A stretch of DNA of 64,000 nt, taken from Spinacia oleracea. Lineage: Eukaryota; Streptophyta; Magnoliopsida; Caryophyllales; Amaranthaceae. Of the stretch, positions 29,155-62,952 are shown in pieces. Below the pieces are notes generated by a model. It had not been told where the DNA came from. It ran no database searches and saw only the letters and a list, made by a program, of their open reading frames with translations. Numbering within the stretch: position 1 is the stretch's first letter; every line of letters begins with the position of its first letter. The DNA lies in the NCBI RefSeq assembly GCF_020520425.1, contig NC_079492.1:1178001-1242000 (forward strand). Reading direction: 5' to 3'. The translations under genes were made by a program, and so were the position numbers.

Positions 29155-29986
29155 CTTGGTATGTTTGATTGTTTGAGTTTCAAATTAGATCATAATCAAT
29201 TATTGATTTGTATAGTCACATAAGTGAGAATATTTGTAGTCGTTCTAGTTAAACGATAATTTTAACATTAGTTTAAATAATACTTCGTATATCATTAGTA
29301 ACTCTCAAGTTTTTGCTTGACTTTATTCAAACGGGATTTTGCTTGACTTTGTTAAGAACAAGATATCCTTTGACTTTGTAAAAACTCATTTCTTTGATTG
29401 ACTAGGGATTCTAGAAGTGTGTTTGACACAAGCTAATTAAAATGATAAGCTAAGAAAGAGTATTTAGTTTGAAGTTCCTTAAGTTATTAATATTCCGTTG
29501 TACTTTTAACTAGCTTTTCAACGAAGTTGTCTCTAATGTTTGTGACTATTGAGTATTGAGTTATTGACTATAGCCACTACAAGTATACACAGTAAAATAT
29601 TTACTATTATTATTCAAATTTAACATATATGGGTCACTTATCGAATTATCGATGATCATTTTTCTTCACTAATAATTAATGAGGGTCCACAAAATATGAG
29701 ATCCAAACATAGCATTAATAAGGAGAATGAAAAACATACCTTTGGTCCTTTGCGTCGGTTTAGCTTTAGTATATTGTTAAAATTATATTTGTGGACTAAA
29801 ACTAATTAACCTTGCATGTACATAATGACACAAAAAATGAAAATTTAAATTTACTACTCGTAGCATTCATGGTTGTAGACTTGTAGTTGGTGATGTGGTC
29901 CTTGTGGACACAACTCCGAAATGGTTTGGCTATTTGTGAGGGGTTGAAAAAGCACGAGGCTAATGCGTGACCTTGTCCCTCGTGGG
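29155..29986. other. Intergenic spacer before the gypsy LTR
   Basis: I see no coding sequence or structured element in this 0.8-kb stretch. It separates the gene-bearing part of the window from the retrotransposon block. Confidence 0.4.
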
Positions 29987-31387
29987 TGTGACGTTTCTTT
30001 TTGTCAAATCAAGTGTAATTGGATTTCCTGTGAGTTTACACCCAATTGACTAGTAATATAGGAGTCGCCATTCAGTTTTTAACGACAATGAGAAAAACTG
30101 TCAAAACCCGGTTAACGTGACATAAAGGGAGTGCAATTATGTTTGACCACGACGGCCGTAGGTTCCCTTGTGATCCCTGGTGTGGGGATCTCTCAACATA
30201 CACCCGCAAGGTAGAGATTGAGGGTTCGGGGGACTGTAACTACCGAGAGGAGTACTCGCTCTTCGATAACTCCAGAGGCAGGATATCCTTACTAGCTCAG
30301 CATAAATAATTGAAGGGACATGTGTTAACTATTAAACTAATCTGAGTTGATTTTAACAATATGCAACATATAGTACTAGATCGAGCGCGATTATCTGATT
30401 TAGATTGTAATAAGGGACCTAGCATGATAATCCAATTTTCCAAAAATATCATATTTATTAGGCGTGATAGAACAATCAGATTTAATTAGTTTAACAGTTC
30501 ATGAAAGGGCGAGGAAAGCAATTAAACCATGGAAAAGGGACACATTACGACGCACCCTGGAGAGGTGCGTCACGGTTCTCAGAAAACTAACCACTTTGAC
30601 TTTGCTATTTCTCCTTTTATTTAACGAATCTCAAGTTATGGGACAGAATACGTTCTGTTCGATTTATGGATCGATTGCGACAGAACGCGCGATCAGTTTT
30701 TGCAGCGTGAGCCTTAGGCTTAGGGGTTTAGAGTCAATACTCAGAATAATAATTGTGTGTTCTCCTTTCACGTCGAACTTAAGGCCCTATTTATAGAAAA
30801 GAGTTCGTGGAAAGATAGAATTGTAGAACTCTAATCCACGAGGAATTAGGAAAGAATACGTCCCAGGTAATTTCAGCGCCCAGGCTTGGGCGCCGAAGAT
30901 TTCGGCGCCCAGAGCCAGGCGTTGAAAATAGGATCTGGGCTGTTTTCTCAGCCAGATTCGGATTCCTAGAATCCGGAGTTTTTGAGACTTAATCGACTCT
31001 TTTAGTGCTTATTAACCTTGTGACGGAATGCGTCTGGGCCCGTTACGAACTCTAGGCTCGTTAGGATTTTAATTAATACGTGACTCTTATTTTCGAATCA
31101 TATTAGGAATAGGATTCTCTCATAATCTCTATCTCATTTAGGATTTATGTTGGAGTGCAACACCTAATTCTGACAGGTTTCTGTCTTTTATGACTTGCCA
31201 CTTTTAACAACTACCCATTACGACAGTTACTATTTTTAGCATGTTTCCATAAATAGCAGGTTTCGGGTGAAATGAAAAGGGGAATTGAGATTCGTTATTT
31301 TATAGGAGATGCGTTGTCAAGTGGAGATTTATGCTTTCATCATCGAACCTTCCCTTTCGGGAATGGGGACAAAAGTAGGTGTCTACA
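29987..31387 (-). mobile_element. Ty3/gypsy 3' LTR (minus strand)
   Basis: Read on the minus strand the LTR begins TGTAGACACCTACTTTTGTC at 31387 and probably ends GAAACGTCACA at 29987. A minus-strand TATA box (CTATAAATAGGGC, near 30785-30798) sits inside. The left boundary is judged from the CA end and is less sure than the right. The purine-rich AAAGTGGGGGCTAAC immediately upstream on the minus strand is a good polypurine tract, which makes this the 3' LTR. A paired-hairpin module lies inside at 30871-30929. Confidence 0.75.
30871..30929. repeat. Paired-hairpin module 1 (in gypsy LTR)
   Basis: Two adjacent inverted motifs: TTTCAGCGCCCAGGCTTGGG followed by CGCCGAA, then TTCGGCGCCCAGAGCCAGGC followed by GTTGAAAA. 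Each is a GC-rich stem with a tiny loop, framed by TTTC/GAAA. Confidence 0.85.
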
Positions 31388-31402
31388 GTTAGCCCCCACT
31401 TT
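31388..31402 (-). other. Polypurine tract of the gypsy element
   Basis: On the minus strand AAAGTGGGGGCTAAC directly precedes the TGTAGACACC start of the LTR. This is the expected primer site for plus-strand DNA synthesis. Confidence 0.7.
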
Positions 31403-31627
31403 GACTGAGTCTTGGAGTAAGACGATGGTCAAAGTATTAGACGGAGTGCACCACACAAGTCATGGTGACCTGCTTTTGCGAGGGTCTCACGAGCCCCCGA
31501 GTGATAACATTTGACTTAAGGGTCATCACTTGAAGTGTCGACATATCCCTCACGTGTCATTGGGATTTGTCAACGGATAGTATAGAAACTCCCTCACTTT
31601 GTCATTGGAAGTATCTAAAGAGGCGTA

Positions 31628-34441
31628 TGTTAGGTTATGATACATATGACAATTCATAAATCATGCGGAAAAAACCATTAAGCCAGGAATACATATTATT
31701 TACACATAATCATATAGCATAATTTAGATGCATACTCTTTGTTGCGTGCCTTCCCTAGCTGCGCCCGAACCGAACAAGAACAAGTCTTTAGGACTCCAAG
31801 TGTCGTCCCTCCGTAGATAGTCCACAGCACGTCCGGATCCGCCTTAAGATTGACCAACTAGAATCGCCCTTAAGGTACTAAAGATTTTCGGCACTTTTAG
31901 GCAAGGAATGTGTCTGAATTTTCTCTCAAAAACTCACTTTGAATACTTGAATAATCTATGAAAATATGTGACCCTAGGCACCTATTTATAGAGTTATGGA
32001 AAGGGTTTTGGAATCCTATTAGGATACTAATTTATTTAATTATAACCCTACTAGGACTCTAATTAAATAATCATTATCTAATAGTTTTAGGATTTAATCA
32101 CACTTCGAATCCCGATTGCTTCAGGATTCCCGCACAAGCATTGTACGAGCACCGTACACCCGCGCAAGCCTTGCGGCCCACGCTAGGTGTTAGGTTATGA
32201 TACATATGATATTACATAAATCATGCGGAAACAACCATTAACCCAGGAATACATATTATTTACACATAATCATATAGCATAATTTAGATGCATACTCTTT
32301 GTTGCGTGCCCTCCCTAGCTGCGCCCGAACCGAACAAGAACAAGTCTTTAGGACTCCAAGTGTCGTCCCTCCGTAGATAGTCCACAGCACGTCCGGATCC
32401 GCCTTAAGATTGACCAACTAGAATCTCCCTTAAGGTACTAGAATTTTCGGCACTTTTGAGCAAGATGTGTGACTGAATTTTTCTCTCAAAAACTCACTTT
32501 GAATACTTTGAAACTCGTTATAAATTGTGAACCCAGGCCACATATTTATAGGGTTATGGAAAGGGAATTGGAATCCTATTTAGATACAAATTAGTTAAAC
32601 CTAGAATCCTACAAGAACTCTAATTTAATTAATTTATCAAATAGAATTAGGAATTTAATCATTAACCGAACTCTGCACGTTTTAGGAAACGTGCACGAAC
32701 ACAAACACTTACGCACACACACACGGCAGCCACGATGGGCCGCCCATGCGTGCGTGCAAGCAGCAGCCCACGCAGCGAGGCCTGCGCGAGCCACAAGCCC
32801 ACGCAAGCACCCGCGCGCGCTGCGCGCGCTGTGCGCGCTGCCACGGCCTGCTGGGCCTGGCCTTGCGCTGGGCCTGGCGTGGCTGTTTGTGTGGCGCGCT
32901 TGGCTTGCTGGGCGATGGCCTGGCTTCGTGCTGGGCCCACGTCCGGCAGGCCTCGTCTGATGCTTATTCGTACGATGCGCTTCCGATTAAATTTCCGATT
33001 CCGGAATTCATTTCCGATACGAACAATATTTAACATTTCCGATTCCGGAATTAATTTCCGTTTCGAACAAATATTTAATATTTCCGTTTCCGGAATTATT
33101 TTCCGATTCCGGTAATATTTCCGATTCTGACAATATTTTCGTTTCCGGCAATATTTCCGATTCTGGTAATATTTCCATTTCCGATAATATTTTCCGATAC
33201 GTACCATGTTTCCGTTTCCGGCAACATCTACGACTTGGATAATATTTATATTTCCGATACGATCCATATTTCCGTTTCCGGTAATATCATCGTTTCCGGA
33301 GTATTCATTTCTTGCCTGTGACGATCTCAGCTCCCACTGAAACCAAGATCCGTCGATTCCGAATATCCATAGATAGAGTATTTAATGCCATTAAATAATT
33401 GATCCGTTTACGTACTATTTGTGTGACCCTACGGGTTCAGTCAAGAGTAAGCTGTGGATTAATATCATTAATTCCACTTGAACTGAAGCGGCCTCTAGCT
33501 AGGCATTCAGCTCACTTGATCTCACTGAATTATTAACTTGTTAATTAATACTGAACCGCATTTATTAGACTTATCATAGAATGCATACTTGGACCAAGGG
33601 CATTATTTCCTTCACTAGGCGCACAGCGCTCGGCCCATTGTTGTGCCCTTGCGCGCGCGCCCAAGGCCTTGGCTGGGCCTGGCCTTGCGCTGGGCCTGGT
33701 CGAGGCTTGGCGTGCGATGGTGCGCGTTGGCTCGCTGGGTGACGGTCTGGCTTCGTGCTGGGCCTTCGTCTAGCGGGCCTCGTCCGATGCTAATTCGTAC
33801 GATACGCTTCCGATTAAATTCCCGATTCCGGAATTCATTTCCGATACGAACAATATTTAATATTTCCGATTCCGGAATCAATTTCCGTTTCGAACAAATA
33901 TTTAATATTTCCGTTTCCGGAATTATTTTCCGATTCCGATAATATTTCCGATTCTGACAATATTTCCGTTTCCGGCAATATTTCCGATTCTGGCAATATT
34001 TCCATTTCCGATAATATTTTCCGATACGTACCATGTTTCCGTTTCCGGCAACATCTACGACTTGGATAATGTTTATATTTCCGATACGATCCATATTTCT
34101 GTTTCCGGCAATATCATCGTTTCCGGAGTATTCATTTCTTGCCTGTGACGATCTCAGCTCCCACTGAAACCAAGATCCGTCGATTCCGAATATCCATAGA
34201 TGGAGTATTTAATGCCATTAAATACTTGATCCGTTTACGTACTATTTGTGTGACCCTACGGGTTCAGTTAAGAGTAAGCTGTGGATTAATATCATTAATT
34301 CCACTTGAACTGAAGCGGCCTCTAGCTAGGCATTCAGCTCACTTGATCTCACTGAATTATTAACTTGTTAATTAATACTGAACCGCATTTATTAGACTTA
34401 ACATAGAATGCATACTTGGACCAAGGGCATTATTTCCTTCA
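31628..34441 (-). mobile_element. Outer solo LTR of the copia family, interrupted by a second solo LTR
   Basis: The outer LTR consists of 31628-32187 and 33620-34441. It starts TGTTAGGTTATGAT and ends TTATTTCCTTCA, which is the reverse complement of the LTR at 46679. The flanks carry a perfect 5-bp duplication GCGTA at 31623-31627 and 34442-34446. No internal region is present, so this is a solo LTR left by LTR-LTR recombination within the gypsy 3' region. A second LTR with its own duplication sits inside it. Confidence 0.9.
32188..33614 (-). mobile_element. Inner solo LTR of the same copia family
   Basis: A complete 1427-bp LTR in minus orientation, flanked by the perfect 5-bp duplication CTAGG at 32183-32187 and 33615-33619. 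It landed inside the GC-rich part of an older LTR of its own family. The ORFs in its GC-rich part (for example 32662-33267 on the minus strand) are composition artefacts. Confidence 0.92.
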
Positions 34442-34633
34442 GCGTAGAAACTCCCTCACTTTGTCATTGGGAGTAGCTACAGATGTTTTCGAAATCAAAG
34501 CTATATAGTGTAATTGGGCCTGGCCAAGCCCAATCACGAGGTAAAAATGTTTTTAAAGATTCTCATTTTCAGGGTTAGCTAAACGAGAAAACCCCCTTGT
34601 TTTTATGGGACGTAAAACGAAGGAAAATCCAGC

Positions 34634-34985
34634 ACATCGTTCTTTTTGGAAAAAACGGAAAACCATTCTTTTAAATTTTGGAAAAAAGGGAAAGCTACTC
34701 ACATCGTTCTTTTTTGGAAAAAACGGAAAACCATTCTTTTAAATTTTGGAAAAAAGGGAAAGCTACTCACATCGTTCTTTTTTGGAAAAACGGAAAACCA
34801 ATCTTTGGAAAAAGGGGAAGCTACTCACATCGTTCTTTTTTAGGAAAAACGGAAAACCAATCTTTGGAAAAAAAGGGAAGCTACTCACATCGTTCTTTTT
34901 TTGGAAAAAACGGAAAACCAATCTTTGGAAAAAGGGGAAGCTACTCACATCGTTCTTTTTTGGAAAAAACGGAAAACCAGAAAAA
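34634..34985. repeat. Tandem array of 58-68-bp units in the gypsy 3' region
   Basis: Six copies begin with ACATCGTTCTTTTT at 34634, 34701, 34769, 34827, 34887 and 34947. Each continues with GGAAAAAACGGAAAACCA and an A-rich stretch ending AGCTACTC. The first units are longer because they keep TTCTTTTAAATTTTGG. Apparent ORFs across this array simply follow the repeat. Confidence 0.9.
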
Positions 34986-35003
34986 GTTATCGCTGCAGTG
35001 ATT

Positions 35004-35425
35004 AAGGACCTGCGCGGTTAGTGACGCAGACCCCGCCGGCTAAAGATGGCGAGCCTGTCCGCTAAGGGTGGACACCCCGTCCGATAGAAGTGGACGAATC
35101 TGTTTTTGAAATTTGAAAATAAGGACCTACGCGGTTTTGTGACGTAGACCCCGCCGGCTAAAGATGGCGAACCTGTCCGCTAAGGGTGGACACCCCGTCC
35201 GATAGAAGTGGATGAATCTATTTTGAAATTTGTTTTGTGTTTATTTTTTGAAAATGAGGACCTACGTGGTTTGCGCCGTAGACCCCGCCGGCTGAAGATG
35301 GCGAGCCTGTTTCATTTTGAATTTTGAAAATTTTATTTTTGGAAAACTGAGGATCTGCGCGGCTAGTGACGCAGACCCCGCCCGCTGAGGGTGGGCGAAC
35401 CCTGTCCGCTGAGGGTGGACGTCCC
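35004..35425. repeat. Tandem array of about 93-135-bp units made of short hairpins
   Basis: Four units start at about 35004, 35121, 35256 and 35349 with (A/T)(A/G)AGGACCTGCGCGG-like sequence. Within a unit, short inverted motifs follow each other: GCCGGCTAAAGATGGC, GTCCGCTAAGGGTGGAC and GTCCGATAGAAGTGGAC. Each is a 3-4-bp stem closing a loop. The third and fourth units are shortened and diverged. Confidence 0.85.
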
Positions 35426-36325
35426 TGAATTCGTTTTTCGTTTTGGAACTCGCGTGGTTCGTGACGTGATCTTACCAATTGAGATGGGCAAGTTTCCTAT
35501 TTTTTCATCGTGATTTCTTTTTTTTTGAGTATTTCTTTTGTTCATTCTTGCAAGAGCGAATTCTTTCGAGGGATGCTCGAATTTAGTTGTAACCTGAACG
35601 TGGGTTGACAATGAGTTTAGACGGACCTTTGTCTTGCGACCGTCTGCTTTCGTGGTTTTGAGCTAGTCTTTATGGCTCGATTTTTGCCACCACTTGGTCT
35701 TTGATCAGAGGACCATGTACAAGTGTCAATGACGACCCTTTTCTGAGGTCGAACCTGTTCTTTTGAGATCATCCAAACATGGGACGGCGTATAGCGTAGT
35801 CCGGGAATGTGATTTCGATTGCGCACTCTTTGTTGGAGTATACTTTTCGCGAGCCCTTAAGCACTTGGGCTTTTGTTGGTCATTTTTCGCATACTTCATA
35901 ACGTCTTTTTATCATGTTTGGGGTCGTGCTCGTATGTGCGAGCGACCTTTCATAGTGGTGTGTTATTTTGGCGAAGTCATGGGGTGCGACTTCAGTCTTG
36001 GGGCGACAAGGTTTAATATCATCCGGTTTAGCCTGGCCTGGATTAATCTTTTGACAGACAAACATTTTTATTTGAGAAACCAACGACTTAACAACATTTT
36101 TTGGTGTTTCGAAGAATGACCTTGATATTTCATATTTGTTTTGAAAAGTGTACATATATGTTCCTTGAGACAAGTCTAAGTTTCGACCAAGTTTTACCAT
36201 TGCTATTTGGGAGCTTAAAGGTGCTTTTGGGCTTGATCTTAATTGCAATAGGGCCTCGTGTCTAGCAACACGGTTTTAAGTCTTTTCCTGTTCCGCGTTT
36301 TGTGAAATCTGGGCCTTGGGCTGCA

Positions 36326-36384
36326 TTTTCGGCGCCCAAGACTGGGCGTTAATTATTTCAGCGCCCAGCTTCGGGCGCTAAAAG
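36326..36384. repeat. Paired-hairpin module 2
   Basis: TTTTCGGCGCCCAAGACTGG continuing GCGTTAA, then TTTCAGCGCCCAGCTTCGGG continuing CGCTAAAA. Same layout as module 1, upstream of the antisense ORF. Confidence 0.85.
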
Positions 36385-36463
36385 TCCTTTCCTGGCGAAT
36401 TTTGACTTTCGGATTTCTTAACGCGTTTCCGAATGGGATCAGGGTGTCACTTGATGCGTTTAG

Positions 36464-36471
36464 CTATATAT
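36464..36471 (+). promoter_or_regulatory. Possible TATA box for the antisense ORF
   Basis: The AGCTATATATAGGGGCTAG context lies about 85 bp upstream of the ATG at 36553, on the strand opposite to gag. Spacing and sequence suit a plant core promoter with a short C/T-rich leader. There is no expression evidence. Confidence 0.45.
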
Positions 36472-36552
36472 AGGGGCTAGATACGTCCCTATTTTCCATC
36501 ACTCTCAATTTCCTTTTTCTTTGCCGCGTTTTAGTTACTCCTTGCTTTCGTC

Positions 36553-38360
36553 ATGTCGATTCCCACTTTCTCACTCCAACGGGCTGTTAGGCGTTGGCTA
36601 CGGGCCCTTACTCCTACAGAAAAGGCTTTGTTGAAAGAATACCACTTAGAGGCACTTTTAGGCTTACAACAAATTAACATTGAGTATAATTTTCTGCACG
36701 CAGCCCTAAGCTTTTGGGATTCCGATCATCATGTTTTTGTCTTTCGGGGCAACGAAATATGTCCTTTGCCAGATGAATTTGCTGCGATCCTTGGTTATCC
36801 TACTAATGCTACCCCTGCCACTCCTGGCACTATTGAAGAGAGTAAAACAACCATAGGGGCTTTCCTAGGACTAGATGCTAACATGCTTGCTGAAATTGTC
36901 GTAGGTGATGAGGTTAATTTGGCAAAACTTGTAAAACACCACTTTAGGCCTAGTAAGAATATGACCGAACAGAAATTGAATATTCGAGCCCTTGTATTTT
37001 GCTTGTTGAATCATTATTTGCTGTCGAATAACAATGGTGAGTTCGGTGACATAAGGTTGATCCCCTTGATTAGCCAGATGGAAAGCTGCTATTCTATTAT
37101 GCCGTTGGTTGTTGCCGAGACTTTGCTGAGTGCGGATGAGCTGAAGAAGGACGCCAAATCTGAATATTTTAAGGGAAGCCCCCTATTACTGCAGGTAATC
37201 GATTTTTTTTCTTTGCGCACGTATACGTTTTTTTTTTGCATATATATTTTTTATTCGTCCTGCCTTGGGGCTGAGTTTCAGCGCCTAGGGCTGGGCGCTA
37301 GAATTATCGGCGCCTGGTCCTGGGCGTTGAAACTGCGCCCCAGGAACCGTTTTATTTTTTTATTTTTTATCGTACCCGTTTTTTGAAGATTTGGCTCGTG
37401 GAACGGCTTAGGCTCTTGGAAACTCCTGCCGATCCTAAACATTATCGCCCTATAGCCTTGGGTAACCGAAAATATTTGCACCGAGGCCAGGACGAGGCCG
37501 AGTGGGCCTCCTTTTTTACTCATGGTATCTGTTCTATTAAGTGGGTGGTACCGTGGTGGGGTTTGACTACTATGACGGGGGGTTCTGATGTATCGGTTTA
37601 TGTTTCCTTGTTGGGGCTATCTCGGCCCACTTATATTTTCCCTTACCGAGTCATGCGTCAATACGGTTTAAGGCAGACTATCCCCTTTTCTGATACGGTA
37701 CCACCTAAAGTAGCGGCCTTTTCACAAGCACGGGTTCAAGCGTGGGCTAAGTATTATGATGGTCTCCCGCATTGGGCCGTAGCTACAAATGTCTTTGTGG
37801 GTCTTTCTGAAAACTACAAGTTGTGGATGAGCTCCGATGATAAGGCTGTGAGGACCGAGGCTCGAAATGGGGAGCCGGCTGAGCTTTTGATACCTCGCAT
37901 TTGGGTCAGATATGAGGGCCGTGATTCTGCCAATCCTCGCACCCATGGTATTAAGACTGTGAAAGCTCGTCCTGATCGAAAACGGAAGGAAGTTCCTCCC
38001 TGTTCCAGTTCTAGGCCTAAAAAGGTGCCTAACATGAAGGGGCCTGCTGTTGTTAAAAGAAGTGCAGGCTCTCGCGGAGATCGTCGCCGGAACAATGTAT
38101 GGGTTAGGAAGGCTCAGCCGCCTGTAGAAACAGTGGCTAGTCTAGTTGATGATAATAATTCTTCTCCCACCATTGTCTGTGCCCTTGAGGCTGAGCGGGC
38201 TATAACCGAGAATGTTTCTGAAGCCTTGGCATCTTTGGAAGTTAGTGTCCAGGAGCCGGTTCTTATGGTAATTGATATAGGGGCGGCGCAGAAGACTGTG
38301 GGGGTGGATCCTGCGAAATTGCCCTCTACAAGACTTTATTTGATGATCTGGAAGAACTAG
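36553..38360 (+). CDS. Antisense extra ORF of the gypsy element (DUF7745/plant mobile domain-like)
   Basis: Two exons, 36553-37194 and 37389-38360, join in frame (LLLQ/IWLVERL) across a 194-bp GT/AG intron. They give 537 codons. The N-terminal part, with a segment like FLHAALSFWDSDHHVFVFRG and then CPLPDEFAAILGYP, fits the plant-mobile-domain/DUF7745 type of transposon-derived proteins. The second exon continues the domain (PADPKHYRPIALG, then VVPWWGL and RPTYIFPYRVMRQYG) and ends in a basic, low-complexity tail (RPDRKRKEVPPCSS). It lies on the strand opposite gag, between the protease ORF and the 3' LTR; extra ORFs at this place are known in Tat-clade gypsy elements. Function is unknown. The intron contains a paired-hairpin module at 37276-37332. 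No disabling stop was found in the spliced frame. Confidence 0.65.
37276..37332. repeat. Paired-hairpin module 3 (inside the antisense ORF intron)
   Basis: TTTCAGCGCCTAGGGCTGGG continuing CGCTAGAA, then ATCGGCGCCTGGTCCTGGGC continuing GTTGAAA. It lies wholly within the 194-bp intron. Confidence 0.85.
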
Positions 38361-39700
38361 AGCAGTGTAGTTCTTGCTAGGGTGTAGGTGCCCTTTATTT
38401 ATTTCAGTTGTGTTTGTTTTTTCATTTCTTAGCACTTTGTTTTCCTTCTTATTATTTTTCAATAAAGGCGTATTTTATTTTTCATTTTCATTTTTTGTTT
38501 CTCCTCTTTTTTATATTTTCATATGTCTAACACTTTTTGCACAATTTATATATGTTTTTTTTTATTGGACCGAATCCTTGGTAAAGATTGCCTACGTATC
38601 TTGTCAGAATCAGGTCGCGCGTAGTTCTAGCTAGAATAAATTCTATGATGCCGGATTTTAATAGATATGCCCTGAGGTGGAAGCATATTACTTAACCGGT
38701 CAAATAAGTGAAGTATTATCATTATTTTCGTCTGCCGTTTTTTTGCTGTGAGTCGCATAAAAAATGAAATTCGACTACTAATTTTTGGTGAGCCTATTTG
38801 GATACGTGTTGTACCCCCCAAGTGTTCGTTATTTTTCCGTTATGTGCGGATAAAATGACGAGCACTTCTAAAAAAATTTAGGCAGGCAGAGAGTTTCAAC
38901 GCCCAGGCTGGGGCGTCAAAGATTTCGGCGCCCAGCCCTGGGCGCTGAAAATGATTTCTGGCGGTCGTTTTTGACGCTTTGCTTCACGTGTTCTTGCATT
39001 TATTTCCTTTTCTTCGTTTTAGTGCTTTACTTTTTACTTGTATAAAAATTGATTTTAAGGCTATTTCGGAGGCTTTTTGACTGTTAGCGTGAGACGCATT
39101 TTTGTCCGGATTAATTTTTTCTATTCGTGACTCGAAACGATTTTGAAAATGGGGTTAGGGTGCGGGAGTTATGAAGATCTTTGTGTAGGCTTTTGAGGTG
39201 GGTTGAGGTGCGTGTCGTTTTTGAAGGGTATGGTGGGGTTACATTTTATTAATTCCCTTTTTAAGCAACATTTGCATTTGTTTTAGATTTTGATTTCCTT
39301 CGATTTCTTTGGGTTGCATGGATTGACTTTTATGATGACACTGGTTGACCTTTATGTTTTGGGGATATGAAGGGGATGGTGCGGTTTATTTTGTGGGTTT
39401 CGGGAATTGGTTCCCATGGCACTATTTCAAGACCGAGTGGGCCTTGTTTGTTGGGCCTAGAGTGGGCCGCCTCTTTATTTTTGTATTTTGCAAGTACATT
39501 TGGTGCTTACTTAGTGTTAGAATAAAATTTTTAGGAGAAATATTACGCCTTTATTAATTTGGAAAGTAAGGAAAACACACTGAGATCAAATTGACCTATA
39601 TTCTAAGGGGTCTTAGGACCATCTAAAGTCTTTTTTTTTATTTTTTTTTTACCAATCTAAAGAACTACTAGGCGCTTCTTACTACGGTGCTCTATGTGGC
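38361..39700. other. Gypsy region where reverse transcriptase would be expected, but none is seen
   Basis: Between the antisense ORF and the protease ORF there are 1.3 kb of T-rich sequence with no RT, RNase H or integrase motif in any frame I could check. A paired-hairpin module lies at 38894-38952. Confidence 0.55.
38894..38952. repeat. Paired-hairpin module 4
   Basis: TTTCAACGCCCAGGCTGGGG continuing CGTCAAA, then TTTCGGCGCCCAGCCCTGGG continuing CGCTGAAAAT. It lies between the antisense ORF and the protease ORF. Confidence 0.85.
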
Positions 39701-40744
39701 TTAAGCCTTGGGTCTAGTCTCGTAAAACTTTGGTCCTTCACCGGTACTCATCTTGAATTCTATTCCTTTTGCATTGACCCACTGATATGTCTTCACCCAT
39801 CCGTTCTCGATCTCTTCTAGTGTTGATGCAGGAGAAATTAACCGGGTTGGATCGAAACCTTCATCTTGTAAAGCTAGGTTAGTCATCACAGTCTCGTCCT
39901 CCATAGGCCTCGATTCGTTAAACAATGTCCATAGAGCCTGGTCGTCCAATATTTCAGCTGTTTTAGTCTTGGTGAGGTGGGGTGCCTCATCCAAGGTGTG
40001 GCAGTCATGGAAGATACCAAATCCTGGTTTTAGCAAGCCATCCTGAACGAAGGGTTCAGGGAAATCACAGCATGGGTGTCCTTCTCCTTCCCGAACGAAC
40101 ATTCCGTTAAGGGTTCTTTGATACAGGGGAAGGAGGGTGGTTTGTTTGGCCTTGTTAAGGCGTAGCCTAGACAGGCGGTCAGCAATATCTTCCTCCGTTG
40201 GTTCATAGCCTAAGCCAAAGGGAGTAGATTTGTTGGGTAAAGGATGGAATGTGCATTCCTTCTTCCTTATGCCCAATGGGGTTCCAGGGAAATAACCTTG
40301 AGCTAACATCATTCTAGGGATGTCTCGGGATGCGTGCAGGTCTAGGAATGCTGGATCATAGTTTTCGATGAACTGGATTGCTTCTTCCATTTGAAACCCG
40401 TAAAGGTCGTCTGCAGTTTCGGCCGTTCCAACCATAGTACAACTGACGTCGAGAGGAGGGGCGCGGATTTCTAGTATTACCCCGTTATGGTTAAGTTTAA
40501 CCATTTGGTGCAAGGTAGAAGCCACACCTCCTAAGTCATGGAGCCAAGGTCGCCCCAAGAGGAGGTTGAAAGTAGGCTTGATGTCGATTATTTGAAACTC
40601 CGTGGTGCGTGCCACAGGCCCGGTTTGTATGGTAAGATTGATTTTTCCCAACACAGGCCTTCGGGAGTTATCATAAGCTCGTACCCCTTGCGTGGAGGTT
40701 TGGAAGTCATCGTTTCCTAGCCCCAAGCAATGGGCGGTTCGCAA
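39701..40744 (-). pseudogene. Gypsy protease-region ORF (3' part of gag-pro)
   Basis: 347 codons on the minus strand. The retropepsin active-site motif, DNGSAVNV, is encoded just upstream of the listed ATG in the same frame (near 40760-40790). The flap and C-terminal region follow with a typical ILLGRPWL-like motif (NLLLGRPWLHDLGG). The frame ends before any RT domain. Upstream continuity with gag is broken by a one-base shift near 40817, so the methionine start at 40744 is only formal. The domain would cleave the gag polyprotein. Confidence 0.8.
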
Positions 40745-40769
40745 TGGGCAAACATTAACCGCCGAACCG

Positions 40770-42674
40770 TTATCTACGAGCGCTAGGGGGATGTTTTGTC
40801 CTTTGCATCCAACTACTTAGATAGAGGGCTTTATTGTGAGCACCCCCCTCTTTGGGCAAGTCTTTGTCAGTGAAAACTATTGCCTTTTCTCCGGCATCTC
40901 TCGTGACATGGCTAACCAACGAGTCAGGTGTGATATCTGTAGGTACTGAGATGAGGTCGAGTGAGCGAATAAGCTTTTCGCGATGTTCCTTTGAAGTACA
41001 CATGAGATCCCAGATGGTAATTTCGGCTTTGGTTCTTTTTAGTTGTTTCAAGAGAGGATTTTCAATGACTTCCGCGACGGTGGTGTGCCGTCCATTCTCA
41101 GGAGTTTGCCTAACTGGGATATCGTCCATAGGAGGTGGGCGAATATCCGATTGGTATATTCTTCCGGATTGGGTGAGGTTGTCGACCTCGGGCTCCTGAG
41201 GGGTGGTGTCAATAAGAGCATACCCGGGCCAAGTTTCAGTAAAGAGGTCCTGGCCCGACACATGAGATAGGTAAATATCTTCAGCCTCATCATCCCACAC
41301 ACCGCACACTTCTCTCTCGATTCGATCCACATGGACCACAGCGAGTGGTGCACCTTGTGGTGTAATGTACACCGTAGGGTCAAAGTTCTCATTTTCTGGT
41401 TGGTCGAGAGAGATGTGACAAGAGACGAGTGGGCTCTTGTTGTTGTTGGGTTTGCCAACGTTAGGGAGAGGTATCACTTCATCCTCTATCATGTCCTGGA
41501 TTGTATTTTTTAGGTTCCAGCAGTTTTCAGTGTCATGTCCATTTCCTTGATGGAATTTGCAATAAGTACCTTCGACCCAATATTTTCTCTTGACAGGAGG
41601 GTCACGGGTGGGGCCTATAGGTCTCAACTTTCCTTGATTGGTTAGTCTTTCGAAGGCTTGTACCAAAGTCGACCCGAGTGGGGCAAACTTTCGGTCTCGG
41701 ACCCATCTTCCAGGGCTTCTTTGGGCGGGAGTCTCCTCTACGGCATGGACTTCTTGGGCTTGGGATGTGTTGCCCCTTTTGTAGGTGTTGCTTTTGTATG
41801 CGGGTTTACTTTGTATTGTTTTTGCGAGATCTTCCTCGATCTTTATTCCCACATCATAAACTCTTTTGAAAGTGTCAAGTCCCAGGTACCTAAGGTGTTG
41901 TCTGTAAGCCGGGTCCAGGTTGTCAATGAATTTTTGGACCAATTCTGTTTCGGGAGGCCTATTGATTAGTTGGGCCGCCTGATCCCTCCATCTAGCAAAG
42001 TAGGTTGTGAAACCCTCATTTTTCTTTTGGAAGAGAACTTCCAGCTCGCGCATGGTGACTTGAAAATCCATGTTCGACGAGTATTGCTTGATGAAGACAT
42101 TGACAAAGTCTTCCCAAGTGGGGAAGAGCTTAGGGTCCTGGTGATAGTACCATTTGAGCGGCACAGGTTCCAAGGACAAAGGAAAGGTAGTTAAATACAT
42201 GGACTTGTCCACGCCTTTCAAGTTCATGGCATTCACAAAGCTCAATAGATGATCACGGGGATTGTCCGTGGCTTTAAACTTTGGTAAGTCAGATGAAATA
42301 AACTTTTCTGGTAGTTTGCCAGGAAAAGGTTCAGGATCGAGGGAGAAGTACTTTCTCCCCATGGTTTGCTGTAGGACCATTTTTTCAATCCTCTTCTCGT
42401 TATCGAGGTGATTTTTGGCTTGTGCAGCCGCTAAGGCTTCGTTTTCCATTTTCAGTTGGCCCATGAGTTGGGTCATTTGAGCCATCTGGTCTCGCAATTC
42501 TTCGATGGACATGTTTGAGGGTGCAAATCGAGGTTGGGGAAGCGGAGATCCTTGAAACGAGGGATGACGGACGGAGCTTGGAGTCACTAAACCTGGTGTT
42601 GGCGATGTATCTTCAAGACGCACTAACCGTTGATTTCCTGATCGGCACCAAGTGGCAGGACCAGTCCTATGCAT
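40770..42674 (-). CDS. gag: Gypsy gag protein
   Basis: 634 codons on the minus strand. An N-terminal coiled-coil-like stretch (about residues 55-95, LRDQMAQMTQLMGQLKMENE) precedes a retrotransposon gag domain containing WEDFVNVFIKQYSSNMDF and a conserved ELEVLFQKKNEGFTTYFARW. A CCHC-like knuckle (CKFHQGNGHDTENC) follows. Gag forms the virus-like particle. The C-terminal amino acids after NKALYL are out of frame relative to the protease, indicating a frameshift. A second, partial copy of this gag lies at 62395-62952. Confidence 0.88.
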   Translation of the reverse strand: MHRTGPATWCRSGNQRLVRLEDTSPTPGLVTPSSVRHPSFQGSPLPQPRFAPSNMSIEELRDQMAQMTQLMGQLKMENEALAAAQAKNHLDNEKRIEKMVLQQTMGRKYFSLDPEPFPGKLPEKFISSDLPKFKATDNPRDHLLSFVNAMNLKGVDKSMYLTTFPLSLEPVPLKWYYHQDPKLFPTWEDFVNVFIKQYSSNMDFQVTMRELEVLFQKKNEGFTTYFARWRDQAAQLINRPPETELVQKFIDNLDPAYRQHLRYLGLDTFKRVYDVGIKIEEDLAKTIQSKPAYKSNTYKRGNTSQAQEVHAVEETPAQRSPGRWVRDRKFAPLGSTLVQAFERLTNQGKLRPIGPTRDPPVKRKYWVEGTYCKFHQGNGHDTENCWNLKNTIQDMIEDEVIPLPNVGKPNNNKSPLVSCHISLDQPENENFDPTVYITPQGAPLAVVHVDRIEREVCGVWDDEAEDIYLSHVSGQDLFTETWPGYALIDTTPQEPEVDNLTQSGRIYQSDIRPPPMDDIPVRQTPENGRHTTVAEVIENPLLKQLKRTKAEITIWDLMCTSKEHREKLIRSLDLISVPTDITPDSLVSHVTRDAGEKAIVFTDKDLPKEGGAHNKALYLSSWMQRTKHPPSARR

Positions 42675-43409
42675 AAGATAAGCTAAAGTTTAGGCCCCAA
42701 AGTTTCGAGTATTACTTATTCTAGACTTCGACTCTCTCTATTGGTTTTTCACTCTTTCTTTTGTTGGTACACTTTTAGTTCTTTCTTTTGGTCATTCTTT
42801 GGATTTTCGAAACACTTGCCCGTGTGACATTCATAATTATTAGCATGTTCGGCTTTGGTGCCGAGAATTGTCGTCGTAGGAGGCCTAACAACGACGCAAA
42901 GAGTTATTCTTTTTATGAGTCGCTTTTAGAATCGAGTGCTTTTCTTACGCCCTCGCGGCAATTTTTTTTACGAACGGTTTTTTTGCTACGTGTTTTCTTT
43001 TTCGCGGGCACAGAGGCTGCTGCGCCTGACCAGAAGGCCAAGCAGCAACTTCAGCGCCCATCGTAGGGCGTGAGAAATTCTGGCGCCCAGCCAGGGGCGT
43101 TGAAAATGCGTCCCTGGCTGGTTCTCGTTTTCTGTTTGCGTCTACTTTTGTTTATGCGACTTCGATTTTGCGTTCTTGCCCAATAACGTCCTTTACGCGT
43201 TGTGCAGCGTTTGTGGGATTCGTTACAGGCCATCCCTAGCGTCGCTTATTTTTGTGGCGATCGTTCGGGTTTGCGGAACACGTATTTCGGTATAACTCTT
43301 TGGCAAATTGGTTTATGAATGTTTGGGCGATTTTTAAGGTCGTTGGTTTTTCTAGGATAGTTTGTCGCACACAATCATATATTTCGCTACACATAACTAA
43401 CATTACATC
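42675..43409 (-). other. Gypsy 5' leader, cut by the copia insertion
   Basis: Non-coding sequence upstream of gag on the minus strand, with a paired-hairpin module at 43050-43107. It stops at the copia LTR at 43410. The gypsy 5' LTR is not in the window and may lie beyond the right end. Confidence 0.55.
43050..43107. repeat. Paired-hairpin module 5 (gypsy 5' leader)
   Basis: TTCAGCGCCCATCGTAGGGC continuing GTGAGAAA, then TTCTGGCGCCCAGCCAGGGG continuing CGTTGAAAAT. The first stem has decayed most. Confidence 0.8.
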
Positions 43410-46678: not shown

Positions 46679-48056
46679 TGAAGGAAATAATGCCCTTGGT
46701 CCAAGTATGCATTCTATGTTAAGTCTAATAAATGCGGTTCAGTATTAATTAACAAGTTAATAATTCAGTGAGATCAAGTGAGCTGAATGCCTAGCTAGAG
46801 GCCGCTTCAGTTCAAGTGGAATTAATGATATTAATCCACAGCTTACTCTTGACTGAACCCGTAGGGTCACACAAATAGTACGTAAACGGATCAAGTATTT
46901 AATGGCATTAAATACTCCATCTATGAATATTCGGAACCGACGGATCTTGGTTTCAGTGGGAGCTAAGATCGTCACAGGCAAGAAATGAATACTCCGGAAA
47001 CGATGATATTGCCGGAAACGGAAATATGGATCGTATCGGAAATATGAATATTATCCAAGTCGTAGATGTTGCCGGAAACGGAAACATGGTACGTATCGGA
47101 AAATATTATCGGAAATGGAAATATTACCAGAATCGGAAATATTGCCGGAAACGGAAATATTGTCAGAATCGGAAATATTATCGGAATCGGAAAATAATTC
47201 CGGAAACGGAAATATTAAATATTTGTTCGAAACGGAAATTGATTCCGGAATCGGAAATATTAAATATTGTTCGTATCGGAAATGAATTCCGGAACCGGGA
47301 ATTTAATCGGAAGCGTATCGTACGAATTAGCATCGGACGAGGCCTGCCGGACGAAGGCCCAGCACGAAGCCGGGCCATCGCCCAGCAAGCACGCGCGCCA
47401 CAAGCCCAGCCAAGGCAGCGCCCAGGCCTACCGCAAGGCAGGCCCAGCGCGCGCCAAGGCCACGGATGCGTGGGCCGCGCTGCGTGGGCTGCTGCTCGCA
47501 CGCGCATGGGCAGCCCTTGTGGCTGCCGTGTGTGTGTGAGTTTGTGCTCATGCGTGATTCCTAAATCTACAAGAGTTAGTGTATGATTAAATTCCTATTC
47601 CTAATTGGATAAATTAATTAAATAGAATTCATGTAGGATTCTAATTTCAATTAATTCGTATCCTACTAGGATTACGATTCCTTTTCCATAACTCTATAAA
47701 TAAAGGCCTAGGGGTCATTATTTATACACAAGTTTTAAGTATTCAAAACTAAGATTTTTAAGCAGAAAAATCAGCCAATATTCTTGCCTACCTAACCGAA
47801 AATATTAGAACCTTAAGGGCGATTCTAGTTGGTCAATCTTAAGGCGGATCCGGACGTGCTGTGGACTATCTACGGAGGGACGACACTTGGAGTCCTAAAG
47901 ACTTGTTCTTGTTCGGTTCGGGCGCAGCTAGGGAAGGCACGCAACAAAGAGTATGCATCTAAACTATGCTAAATGATTATGTGTAAATAATATGTTTCCT
48001 GGCTTTATGGTTTTTCCGCATGATTTATGAACTGTCATATGAATCATAACCTAACA
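46679..48056 (+). repeat. 5' LTR of the young copia element
   Basis: U3 contains an array of CGGAAA-type motifs (46993-47310), then a GC-rich stretch (47330-47520), then a TATA box. The apparent 186-codon ORF at 47026-47586 follows the repeat and also occurs in the 3' LTR. I regard it as non-coding. Confidence 0.93.
47695..47702 (+). promoter_or_regulatory. TATA box of the copia 5' LTR
   Basis: TATAAATA in the context ACTCTATAAATAAAGGCC. The same context recurs in the 3' LTR (56792-56799) and, in reverse, as CTATTTATAG in the minus-strand LTRs. It sets the start of the R region about 30 bp downstream. Confidence 0.75.
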
Positions 48057-55775: not shown

Positions 55776-57153
55776 TGAAGGAAATAATGCCCTTGGTCCA
55801 AGTATGCATTCTATGTTAAGTCTAATAAATGCGGTTCAGTATTAATTAACAAGTTAATAATTCAGTGAGATCAAGTGAGCTGAATGCCTAGCTAGAGGCC
55901 GCTTCAGTTCAAGTGGAATTAATGATATTAATCCACAGCTTACTCTTGACTGAACCCGTAGGGTCACACAAATAGTACGTAAACGGATCAAGTATTTAAT
56001 GGCATTAAATACTCCATCTATGAATATTCGGAACCGACGGATCTTGGTTTCAGTGGGAGCTAAGATCGTCACAGGCAAGAAATGAATACTCCGGAAACGA
56101 TGATATTGCCGGAAACGGAAATATGGATCGTATCGGAAATATGAATATTATCCAAGTCGTAGATGTTGCCGGAAACGGAAACATGGTACGTATCGGAAAA
56201 TATTATCGGAAATGGAAATATTACCAGAATCGGAAATATTGCCGGAAACGGAAATATTGTCAGAATCGGAAATATTATCGGAATCGGAAAATAATTCCGG
56301 AAACGGAAATATTAAATATTTGTTCGAAACGGAAATTGATTCCGGAATCGGAAATATTAAATATTGTTCGTATCGGAAATGAATTCCGGAACCGGGAATT
56401 TAATAGGAAGCGTATCGTACGAATTAGCATCGGACGAGGCCTGCCGGACGAAGGCCCAGCACGAAGCCGGGCCATCGCCCAGCAAGCACGCGCGCCACAA
56501 GCCCAGCCAAGGCAGCGCCCAGGCCTACCGCAAGGCAGGCCCAGCGCGCGCCAAGGCCACGGATGCGTGGGCCGCGCTGCGTGGGCTGCTGCTCGCACGC
56601 GCATGGGCAGCCCTTGTGGTTGCCGTGTGTGTGTGAGTTTGTGCTCATGCGTGATTCCTAAATCTACAAGAGTTAGTGTATGATTAAATTCCTATTCCTA
56701 ATTGGATAAATTAATTAAATAGAATTCATGTAGGATTCTAATTTCAATTAATTCGTATCCTACTAGGATTACGATTCCTTTTCCATAACTCTATAAATAA
56801 AGGCCTAGGGGTCATTATTTATACACAAGTTTTAAGTATTCAAAACTAAGATTTTTAAGCAGAAAAATCAGCCAATATTCTTGCCTACCTAACCGAAAAT
56901 ATTAGAACCTTAAGGGCGATTCTAGTTGGTCAATCTTAAGGCGGATCCGGACGTGCTGTGGACTATCTACGGAGGGACGACACTTGGAGTCCTAAAGACT
57001 TGTTCTTGTTCGGTTCGGGCGCAGCTAGGGAAGGCACGCAACAAAGAGTATGCATCTAAACTATGCTAAATGATTATGTGTAAATAATATGTTTCCTGGC
57101 TTTATGGTTTTTCCGCATGATTTATGAACTGTCATATGAATCATAACCTAACA
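55776..57153 (+). repeat. 3' LTR of the young copia element
   Basis: 1378 bp, the same length as the 5' LTR, with two substitutions noticed by eye. It ends CTAACA and is followed by the target duplication CTTTG. Confidence 0.93.
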
Positions 57154-60119: not shown

Positions 60120-62394
60120 TATTGTTCCGGCAGGTGTGAATAAAATGATTCCAAGACCCTAAAATCATTGAAGAATTAAGCACATTATGTATTTTGACTC
60201 AATTCTAAAATATTCTAGGTAAGCAAAAGCCTTTTGCTAATAGTCTAGAAACTACTCTTGGTTGATAGGTACGTCTAAGAACTTATTAGGTAAACCTATC
60301 GATTTTGCCACGACATAAAAGGACTCCTTACTTATATCGTTGAGTTTCACCAAAACTAACATGTACTCAATTATTTGTGTACCTTACCCCTTTAGTATCG
60401 ATAAGTAACACCTCGCTATGGCGGAAAACTATTACTAAGATCGATGTAAAGGATATCCAAGTAAGTGTTATTTTGGCATGGCACCTTTTAACTCAATTTT
60501 TAAGTTTGGAACTTAAGGCTCTTACTATGTTGGTTAGATTTTAAGTGAACTAAAATCCTTAATCATGCAACATAAGCAAGCTTTGATCTCATGCATATTT
60601 AAGACATATTTAAAAGTAATAAATAACTTAAAACATGCATAAGATAAATGTGATCTAGTATGGCCCGATTTCAACTTGAAGCTTCAACTTTAAAGTCCGT
60701 CTTGAAAATCTCCGTGGGAGGCGCCATTTTCTTCAAATCGGATAAGCTATAATTAAACTAATTACAACTATTTGATGGTACGCAGACCATATTTGAATTG
60801 AAAAACAGTTTTGGTACTTTAGACCAATTACATTCAAATTAATGATACGCATACCATATTTTCTATCCTATTTGGGCCATACTAGTCACTTCATAACCTG
60901 CAAAATAGTACATATACAATATATACCATTCATCCATTCATTATCATGAATGGCCCACATAGCTGGTTAGTAAAACACGTTATGCATCACATAAATATTT
61001 GCAGCAATTAATTAAGGGCACCAATAATCTACCAATTATTCAGTCCTTATTAATTCTAATCAAGTTGTTTAACCTTAAAGGATTTGTAGACCTAATCAAG
61101 AGTTTATGACTAAAAATTCTCCCACTTAAACCAATAAATTCATATGCTTTACTAATTTTAAACATAAAAATGTATTTCTAGTCTAACCGGAAAAATACAA
61201 ATTTAATTAAAATTTAAAGCTCATATAAATTTATAATCGAATCCATTAATTTAATTTATTTCAGTTTAATTAAACGAATTTAAATTAATTCAAGATTTAA
61301 TTTTAGTAAAATAATTAGTATAAATAAAATTTATAATAATTATAATATTCAAAATTAAAATCCAAGAAAACAATTTAAATTACGAATTTTAAAATTAATT
61401 AAAATCGTTTCCGAACTGAAAATTAAAATTAAATTCAAAGCGCATCAATCGAGCCAAGACGAGGACATGGGCTTGCGTCCATGACCCGTCGAGTCCTCGA
61501 GGCAGCATCGCCCCACGAGTGATCGCACGGCAAGGCTCGAGCAGCTGCCACGCGCAAACGCAGCAAGCCGAGCCACACTTGCGCGCAGCATCGCTCGTTG
61601 CTTCGTAGCGCAGCAGCTGCTTGGCGAGGCTGGGCGAGGCAGCCCTCGTGTTGCGAGGCACTGCTCGCTGCCCGCGCGCGCGCCTGCCTTCTCGCTCGCC
61701 TTGCTTCTTCGCCCATCCGCCCATGCATCATCGCAGCACTCGACGCAAGGCAGGGCTGCTGCCTTGTGCTCGCGTGCTACTCGCCTTGCTCGCTGCATTC
61801 GTACCGCATGGGCGACGAGCTCCCTTGCTCGTCGTTGCATGCCTGCACTATACAACACCCCTTAAGGGTAACACGTAGCGTCCATTGCTTTGTGCGTGCA
61901 AGTTTTATGAGCGAATTGCAAAAAAATTAAAAATTTTATTTTCAAAATTAATGACAAATTAATAAATCATTTTAATTTCATAATTTTAGGGCGAAAAATC
62001 GAAAATTTATTAATTAATTGATTTCCGATTAACATGGATTCAAGTCTAGGTCATAAAAATTTAAAACTTAACACAAATTTACAATTTTTATGGTGGTTTT
62101 TAATCATAGGTATCTAATTAAATTATTAATTAATTATGAAAATCAAATTAATTCTAAATTATTCCAATTTTCAACAAATTAATCATAATTACAAATTAGA
62201 TTGCATAATTAACAAGGCTAGGCATTCAAACTTGTTAAACATATACAGTAGGTCAATCAAAAATTCAAGATTTATCAACAAGAATCGCAAATATTTAATT
62301 TAACATCTTAAATTTACAAACTTTTGCGTTCGAAAAACTAAAACCTTCGAAAAGTCATAGTTAGGCTTCGAATTTGGAAATTCTGGTTTCGGCG
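60120..62394 (-). other. 5' leader of the older copia element
   Basis: Colinear in reverse with 48307-50800 of the young element, including the GC-rich core (61440-61860) and the CCCTTAAGGG palindrome at about 61858-61868. It stops abruptly at 62394, where the young element has 250 bp more up to its primer-binding site. ORFs in the GC-rich part are artefacts. Confidence 0.75.
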
Positions 62395-62952
62395 TGTTGC
62401 TTTTGTATGCGGGTTTAGGTTGTATTGTTTTTGCGAGATCATCCTCGATCTTTATTCCCACATCATAAACTCTTTTGAAAGTGTCAAGTCCCAGGTACCT
62501 AAGGTGTTGTCTGTAAGCCGGGTCCAGGTTGTCAATGAATTTTTGGACCAATTCTGTTTCGGGAGGCCTATTGATTAGTTGGGCCGCCTGATCCCTCCAT
62601 CTAGAAAAGTAGGTTGTCAAACCCTCATTTTTCTTTTGGAAGAGAACTTCCAGCTCGCGCATGGTGACTTGAAAATCCATGTTCGACGAGTATTGCTTGA
62701 TGAAGACATTGACAAAGTCTTCCCAAGAGGGGAAGAGCTTAGGGTCCTGGTGATAGTACCGTTTGAGCGGCACAGGTTCCAAGGACAAAGGAAAGGCAGG
62801 TAAATACATGGACTTGTCCACGCCTTTCAAGTTCATGGTATTCACAAAGCTCAATAGATGATCACGGGGATTGTCCGTGGCTTTAAACTTTGGTAAGTCA
62901 GATGAAATAAAATTTTCTGGTAGTTTGCCAGGAAAAGGTTCAGGATCGAGGG
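62395..62952 (-). pseudogene. Gypsy gag fragment fused to the copia leader
   Basis: 558 bp matching 41786-42343 of the gypsy gag gene without any length change and with about a dozen substitutions seen (roughly 98% identity by eye). It encodes the middle of gag (from about NAMNLKGVDKSMYL to DLAKTIQ). The join to copia leader at 62394/62395 is blunt, with little or no shared sequence. The right end abuts a copia LTR. The primer-binding site expected here is absent. Confidence 0.85.

Follow-up and report, generated by a model that had tools for sequence, protein, structure and literature searches.

The question raised by this locus is why one retrotransposon should carry the same small palindromic module in five non-coding positions. 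The window, a stretch of 64,000 bp of the spinach (Spinacia oleracea) genome (RefSeq assembly GCF_020520425.1, contig NC_079492.1, positions 1,178,001 to 1,242,000), contains on its minus strand a Ty3/gypsy-type element with an antisense open reading frame (ORF), in two exon regions, on the plus strand. The module is real and constrained, and with a probability of roughly 60 % we take it to be a cis-acting cluster of predicted protein-binding sites in a Ty3/gypsy element that has an antisense gene of the PMD type.

The modules, each of 57 bp, lie in the long terminal repeat (LTR; c1), upstream of the antisense ORF (c2), within its predicted intron (c3), between the antisense and the gag-protease ORFs (c4) and in the leader (c5). 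This bore out the places at which a sequence-only reading, made by a model from the letters of the window, had put five paired hairpins. Each module consists of two 18-bp inverted repeats, with hairpin centres 29.0 bp apart in all five, and holds four half-sites with the core CGCC/GGCG. With as many as 3 mismatches allowed, 21 matches to the hairpin pattern were counted in the window against 0.57 expected, and 17 of them were inside modules. The letters conserved at about 94 % or more, averaged over sites, are TTC, CGCCCA, GGGCG, TT, GGCGCC, GGCG and TGAAA, and the differences between sites fall in the loops and in much of the spacer.

Both strands of the five modules are predicted to fold strongly (z from -3.5 to -8.1 over 10 folds), and because the two halves are almost the same palindrome the fold of lowest energy joins the whole module into one long hairpin. 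Pair counts did not discriminate between two hairpins and one (0.840 vs 0.838 of cells paired). They were made on a collection of 152 module rows, including the hairpin-chosen loci L129-L163, from which 5 rows with insertions or deletions (indels) were left out; 3 rows were places counted twice. Over the 106 unique rows without gaps, a single cell of the ten core stem pairs had both letters changed and still paired. The earlier proposal that differences between copies often keep pairing therefore found no support in the core, and its example, CGCCTAG, proved to be private to the intron copy, position 11 being C in the other 17 of the 18 gap-free rows at that site. Outside the core 21 such compensated cells were counted in the two-hairpin form, 12 of them at pair 5-24 and 4 by the loop at 13-16; the one-hairpin form gave 34 in all, both counts being made without a shuffled control. 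Pair-keeping variation was located at the outer stem edge (6-23, 35-52 and 5-24) and beside the loops. Pair 6-23 was GT in 51, GC in 31, AT in 20 and AC in 1 of the 106 rows, and pair 35-52 was GT in 59, GC in 42, AT in 4 and AC in none. G.T on the plus strand, with 110 of the 212 cells at these two pairs against a single A.C, is the commonest non-Watson-Crick state and corresponds to A.C in gag-sense RNA, although shared descent may explain part of the excess. All 148 rows assigned to a site (two places counted twice) run in the direction of the element. The conservation of letters with next to no compensation in the core pairs, together with the single orientation, favours recognition of the module as DNA over RNA folding.

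For these reasons a function of the hairpins in gag-sense genomic RNA, whether in dimerisation, packaging or export, is considered unlikely. The strong predicted folds and the compensated cells outside the core would suit such a function, as would the position of c2 to c5 and of the 3' LTR copy, all of which should be inside the genomic RNA, but the lone compensated cell in the core and the A.C mispairs that this RNA would carry speak against it.

The constraint on the letters was assessed from shared variants, present in at least 2 copies, in comparison with singletons, which mostly postdate insertion. For the comparison over all five sites, and for the letter conservation averaged over sites, the rows were those from L164 on, with L224 left out, and most were picked without using the module; L225, L226 and L227 adjoin hairpin-pattern places, and at c1 the second members of tandem pairs were counted too. 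Over the five sites shared variants were found at 5 of 100 positions in the arms and at 42 of 185 elsewhere in the module (P 8e-5), singletons numbered 25 and 59, respectively, and the contrast between shared variants and singletons gave P 0.016. At c4, shared variants were found at 2 of 57 module positions vs 69 of 328 flanking positions (P 0.0007), with 14 and 96 singletons. The suggestion of selection made by the sequence-only reading thus stands for the arms and for c4. Five loci from other subfamilies were compared with the window around c4: the block with most of the c4 module was 86-93 % identical and the downstream flank block 32-55 %, the upstream block being 79-92 % identical in four of them and 32-45 % in L129; these four had been selected through the hairpin pattern at c4, unlike the L129 module.

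Retention was followed in copies picked by flank or position, with the module not used, the samples being biased to young, intact copies. c4 was present in 20 of 20 anchor-chosen copies and c5 in 19 of 19 informative ones (one of 20 regions ended before the module), while c2 was present in 16 of 16 and c3 in 15 of 15 informative regions out of 20; four regions without the element (three with other transposon sequence, one with no match) and, for c3, one more that stopped short of it were left out. Together the internal sites kept the module in 70 of 70 informative places, with indels of 1-4 bases in 4 of them. Among 40 LTR copies classed by eye, the module was single and complete in 24 and doubled in tandem in 4; 7 had just one hairpin and 1 another partial form, and in 4 the module was lost or interrupted.

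Diverged relatives keep the module as well. The relative L224/L227 (contig C1, approximately 1.552-1.565 Mb) has an integrase match and interrupted pol-like frames (by eye), and the order of a protease match, reverse transcriptase/RNaseH-like frames (by eye) and then the integrase match is that of Ty3/gypsy elements. Between pol and the 3' LTR it has a plus-strand antisense ORF with a PMD match above the cut-off (1.2e-11), one exon of which also matches DUF1985 below threshold (5.4e-5, 23.6 bits vs a cut-off of 35.1). This ORF gave no tblastn match to the antisense ORF of the window at E 0.01, and local alignment of the two gave a short PMD-like match. Modules are present on both sides of the antisense ORF, upstream of it and past its 3' end, where three hairpins again have the 29-bp spacing, and also in the leader and in each LTR. 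A further copy (L165/L268/L146/L269/L147) was matched by none of the gag, protease and antisense-ORF queries (pol was not queried), and its parts L268 and L269 contain no stop-free frame longer than 137 amino acids; it retains modules in the LTR, internal, c4 and leader positions.

The genome searched comprises 894 Mb in 242 contigs, and one exact form of the hairpin was found at 13,656 places in it, with no occurrence of the reversed control. The first 35 places listed, all on contig C1 and taken as 3-kb loci (15) or 0.7-kb stretches (20), were all in this retrotransposon family, so that no copy outside gypsy elements appeared among them; for one, L158, where the module is the one that precedes the antisense ORF, membership was visible only with wider context. 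An LTR anchor with up to 2 mismatches matched 14,766 times (control 19) and a c4 anchor with up to 3 mismatches 2,438 times (control 0). No module was detected at E 1e-3 in eight 3-kb loci picked by an unrelated pattern. In viral contigs a gag search gave no match, and the stretches, at least 120, returned there by the hairpin-pattern scan were taken as chance.

Repeated insertion of a tiny mobile hairpin had been put forward by the sequence-only reading. A mobile palindrome of this kind, comparable to a REPIN or a miniature inverted-repeat transposable element, would account for five sites that have the module but little flank in common, and for the number of hairpins in the genome. It is nevertheless very unlikely, given a sample confined to one family, the uniform orientation and the finding of no clean empty site among the LTR and internal copies examined. 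The bacterial REPIN also has two hairpins as a single unit; the module differs in showing no dispersal beyond one family in the sample, a single orientation of the placed rows and no helper transposase that could be seen.

The copies that have changed show how modules are gained and lost. The seven single-hairpin LTR copies have the same 29-bp deletion between direct repeats, and by eye 8 of 10 LTR deletions lie between short direct repeats, the remaining two being unresolved. One LTR contains a tandem module unit of 73 bp, and at a c4-like place extra copies are held in a longer duplicated block (by eye). Tandem units, block duplication and repeat-bounded deletions point to template switching or slippage and not to a mobile hairpin, and duplication of this type was probably the origin of the module copies. 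It is a different matter whether the copies are nothing but functionless leftovers of tandem or segmental duplication through template switching by reverse transcriptase. The events just described show that such copying occurs, and c1 shows no constraint relative to its flanks, but the depletion of shared variants in the arms, the retention in every informative internal place and the modules persisting beyond alignable flanks are not predicted by it, and we regard this explanation as improbable.

Several observations weigh against modules that act as binding sites in control of the element. No TATA match was found close downstream of c3, c4 or c5, and in the L224 relative no TATA[AT]A was found in the 1.2 kb scanned, so the TATA spacing is not kept. 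The module upstream of the ORF in L224 scored 46.4 in reversed and 43.8 in forward orientation, which weakens a strict orientation rule. The module was lost, halved or interrupted in 12 of 40 LTR copies vs 0 of 70 internal places (P 1.6e-6), and c1 is therefore not strictly needed in the LTR. Shared variants at c1 alone were as frequent as in its flanks (12 of 57 vs 99 of 398 positions, P 0.62; 24 of the 40 LTR copies and the window were used, the 16 with loss, halving, doubling or interruption being dropped), and for the LTR site the suggestion of selection did not hold. Finally, CpG singleton decay at c1 and c4, a test of low power, gave no sign of local hypomethylation at the modules.

Two candidate lines of evidence were given up. 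Fixed TATA spacing was dropped as independent evidence, as LTR copies inherit it and the relative lacks it. Protection of CpG by hypomethylation was rejected: pairwise CpG retention was higher in the module than in the flanks (c1 0.89 vs 0.67, c4 0.89 vs 0.70), but singleton decay was not clearly different (c4 2/105 vs 6/314, c1 1/150 vs 8/374), and the higher retention is therefore read as constraint that acted before insertion.

If the modules are clusters of binding sites, each would offer its four half-sites as two 18-bp inverted repeats at the 29-bp centre spacing. A sequence-specific protein that occupied them ahead of the two TATA boxes, that of the LTR promoter and that of the antisense gene, as well as in the leader, the predicted intron and the intergenic spacer, may control transcription of the element or its state of silencing. 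The likeliest readers would be the antisense PMD-type protein of the element itself or a host transcription factor.

A host factor acting alone, for example a TCP protein, could read the GCCCA half-sites and drive the element in dividing cells with the antisense protein uninvolved. This account overlaps with that of a binding-site cluster and differs in which protein reads the module; it is possible, but we do not think it probable. The core consensus of TCP20 is GCCCR, which GCCCA fits, and TATA matches follow downstream at 75 bp from c1 and 81 bp from c2. Sirevirus boxes are likewise upstream of TATA, and their authors matched them mainly to sites of stress factors (PMC2829016). The copies in the predicted intron, the leader and the intergenic spacer are not promoter-proximal, and the letters flanking GCCCA are conserved as well; these points count against a host factor alone.

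The other candidate reader is proposed more tentatively still: the module may be the target of the antisense PMD-type protein in a system of anti-silencing or self-regulation analogous to VANC-VANDAL. In Arabidopsis VANC21 binds a motif of 9 bp, copies of which recur in the non-coding parts of VANDAL21 (PMC5735166), and DUF1985 is the domain shown for VANC (PMC5735166, PMC10398659). The module resembles VANC targets by layout alone, as a short motif repeated in non-coding regions, including introns and upstream positions, with tandem-repeat dynamics, and the antisense exon of the relative combines its PMD match with the sub-threshold DUF1985 match. Unlike VANDAL, the host here is a retrotransposon, and the motif is a palindromic module of 57 bp. 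Gypsy elements code for the PMD-A clades, and the proteins MAIL1 and MAIN have a role in silencing (PMC5418596); a DNA motif in the promoter shows partial enrichment among the genes with reduced expression in main and mail1 mutants (PMC7156037). If a PMD-type protein did target the module, the plant PMD proteins MAIN and MAIL1 would share such logic. A 2020 review (PMC7264820) described the antisense extra ORFs of plant LTR retrotransposons as having unknown functions, and a conserved motif of fixed spacing in an element with such an ORF would be a concrete candidate target for its protein, retained both in a relative that encodes pol and in a copy without match to the coding queries used.

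The sequence-only reading had known of no standard retrotransposon feature with this layout, yet the Sireviruses of the Ty1/copia group offer a close precedent. Their palindromic boxes precede the TATA box in the LTR and recur near the envelope gene (PMC2829016). Like these RM boxes, the modules are palindromes rich in GC with CG in the core, occur several times in an element, are kept while flanks diverge, and are found in the LTR upstream of TATA and 5' of an additional gene (c2). They differ in being paired at the 29-bp spacing, in their fewer copies per LTR, in their presence also in the predicted intron, the leader and the intergenic spacer, and in their core, CGCC/GGCG and not CGG-CCG. 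The host element is not a Ty1/copia Sirevirus, as judged by its Retrotrans_gag match above the cut-off and the Ty3/gypsy pol order in the relative, and Sirevirus-like palindromic boxes may thus not be limited to Ty1/copia elements. With Ty3/gypsy elements of the Retand/Grande type (PMC11963269, PMC7264820) it shares defective family members, an additional antisense ORF that precedes the 3' LTR and tandem repeats close to that LTR, but its antisense ORF is of the DUF7745/PMD type and not TRP28; the excerpts of those two papers do not mention such a module. No description of one was found in the literature searched, which is weak evidence as most subscription journals were outside its coverage.

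The features of the element are collected in Table 1. No second copy of the LTR was found within the window, and the match to the element ends near 43409, where a nested copia-like repeat starts (copia by eye). Among the ORFs of at least 150 amino acids between the LTR and the gag-protease ORFs no reverse transcriptase or integrase was seen by eye, and the window copy therefore looks non-autonomous. Pfam gave no DUF1985 match in the antisense ORF of the window and no TRP28 match (PF04195) in that of the window or of L224. The placing of c3 inside an intron was correct as to position; the intron itself is predicted, and the first frame (36553-37386) is open right through the module.

Table 1 Positions of the modules and of other features of the element in the window
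Feature	Position	Strand	Remarks
LTR	29935..31387	-	TG...CA ends, 1453 bp
TATA-box match, LTR promoter	30788..30796	-	
Module c1	30871..30927	+	in LTR; upstream of TATA box of minus-strand LTR promoter, 75 bp away (coordinate difference)
Module c2	36327..36383	+	upstream of TATA box of plus-strand antisense ORF, 81 bp away (coordinate difference)
TATA-box match before antisense ORF	36464..36472	+	
Antisense ORF, first exon region	36553..37209	+	DUF7745 2.5e-6, above cut-off; weak PMD match, 0.011
Module c3	37276..37332	+	within predicted intron of antisense ORF
Antisense ORF, second exon region	37383..38360	+	weak PMD match, 0.0058, later part of profile
Module c4	38894..38950	+	between 3' ends of antisense ORF and gag-protease ORFs
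Protease-region ORF	39701..40744	-	protease reading by eye; no Pfam match
gag ORF	40770..42674	-	Retrotrans_gag above cut-off; Ty3_capsid match below cut-off
Module c5	43049..43105	+	leader, upstream of gag

Further conserved or repeated sequences were noted in and around the element. A second conserved inverted repeat, with arms near AAGTGTTCGT and ACGAGCACTT, is located at 38821-38868, approximately 25 bp before c4, and a stem resembling it, with another loop, precedes the c4-like hairpins of L224. A block of approximately 90 bp downstream of the antisense ORF (window 38545-38632, L224 4475-4563) is 92 % identical in the pol-encoding relative, and near it no further match to the window was found among the first 14 matches listed. 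L225 585-1470 is a derivative with c4- and c5-like modules; neither its 145-amino-acid frame at 1036-1470 nor a 151-amino-acid frame of L225 that spans the c4-like module has a Pfam match. A tandem array near the LTR, at 35003-35420, contains several short hairpins, the arms of which vary between units yet pair (CTGCG/CGCAG, CTACG/CGTAG).

Another gag fragment belonging to this family is present at 62303-62854 of the window; the stretch 62394-62952 is 98 % identical to 41785-42343, and this match stops where a copia-like LTR starts. The segment 46679-57154 is by eye a copia-like element, bounded by repeats at 46679-48056 and 55776-57153 that are 99.9 % identical, and the gypsy element contains related repeats, nested in it at 31628-34442 and from 43410 on.

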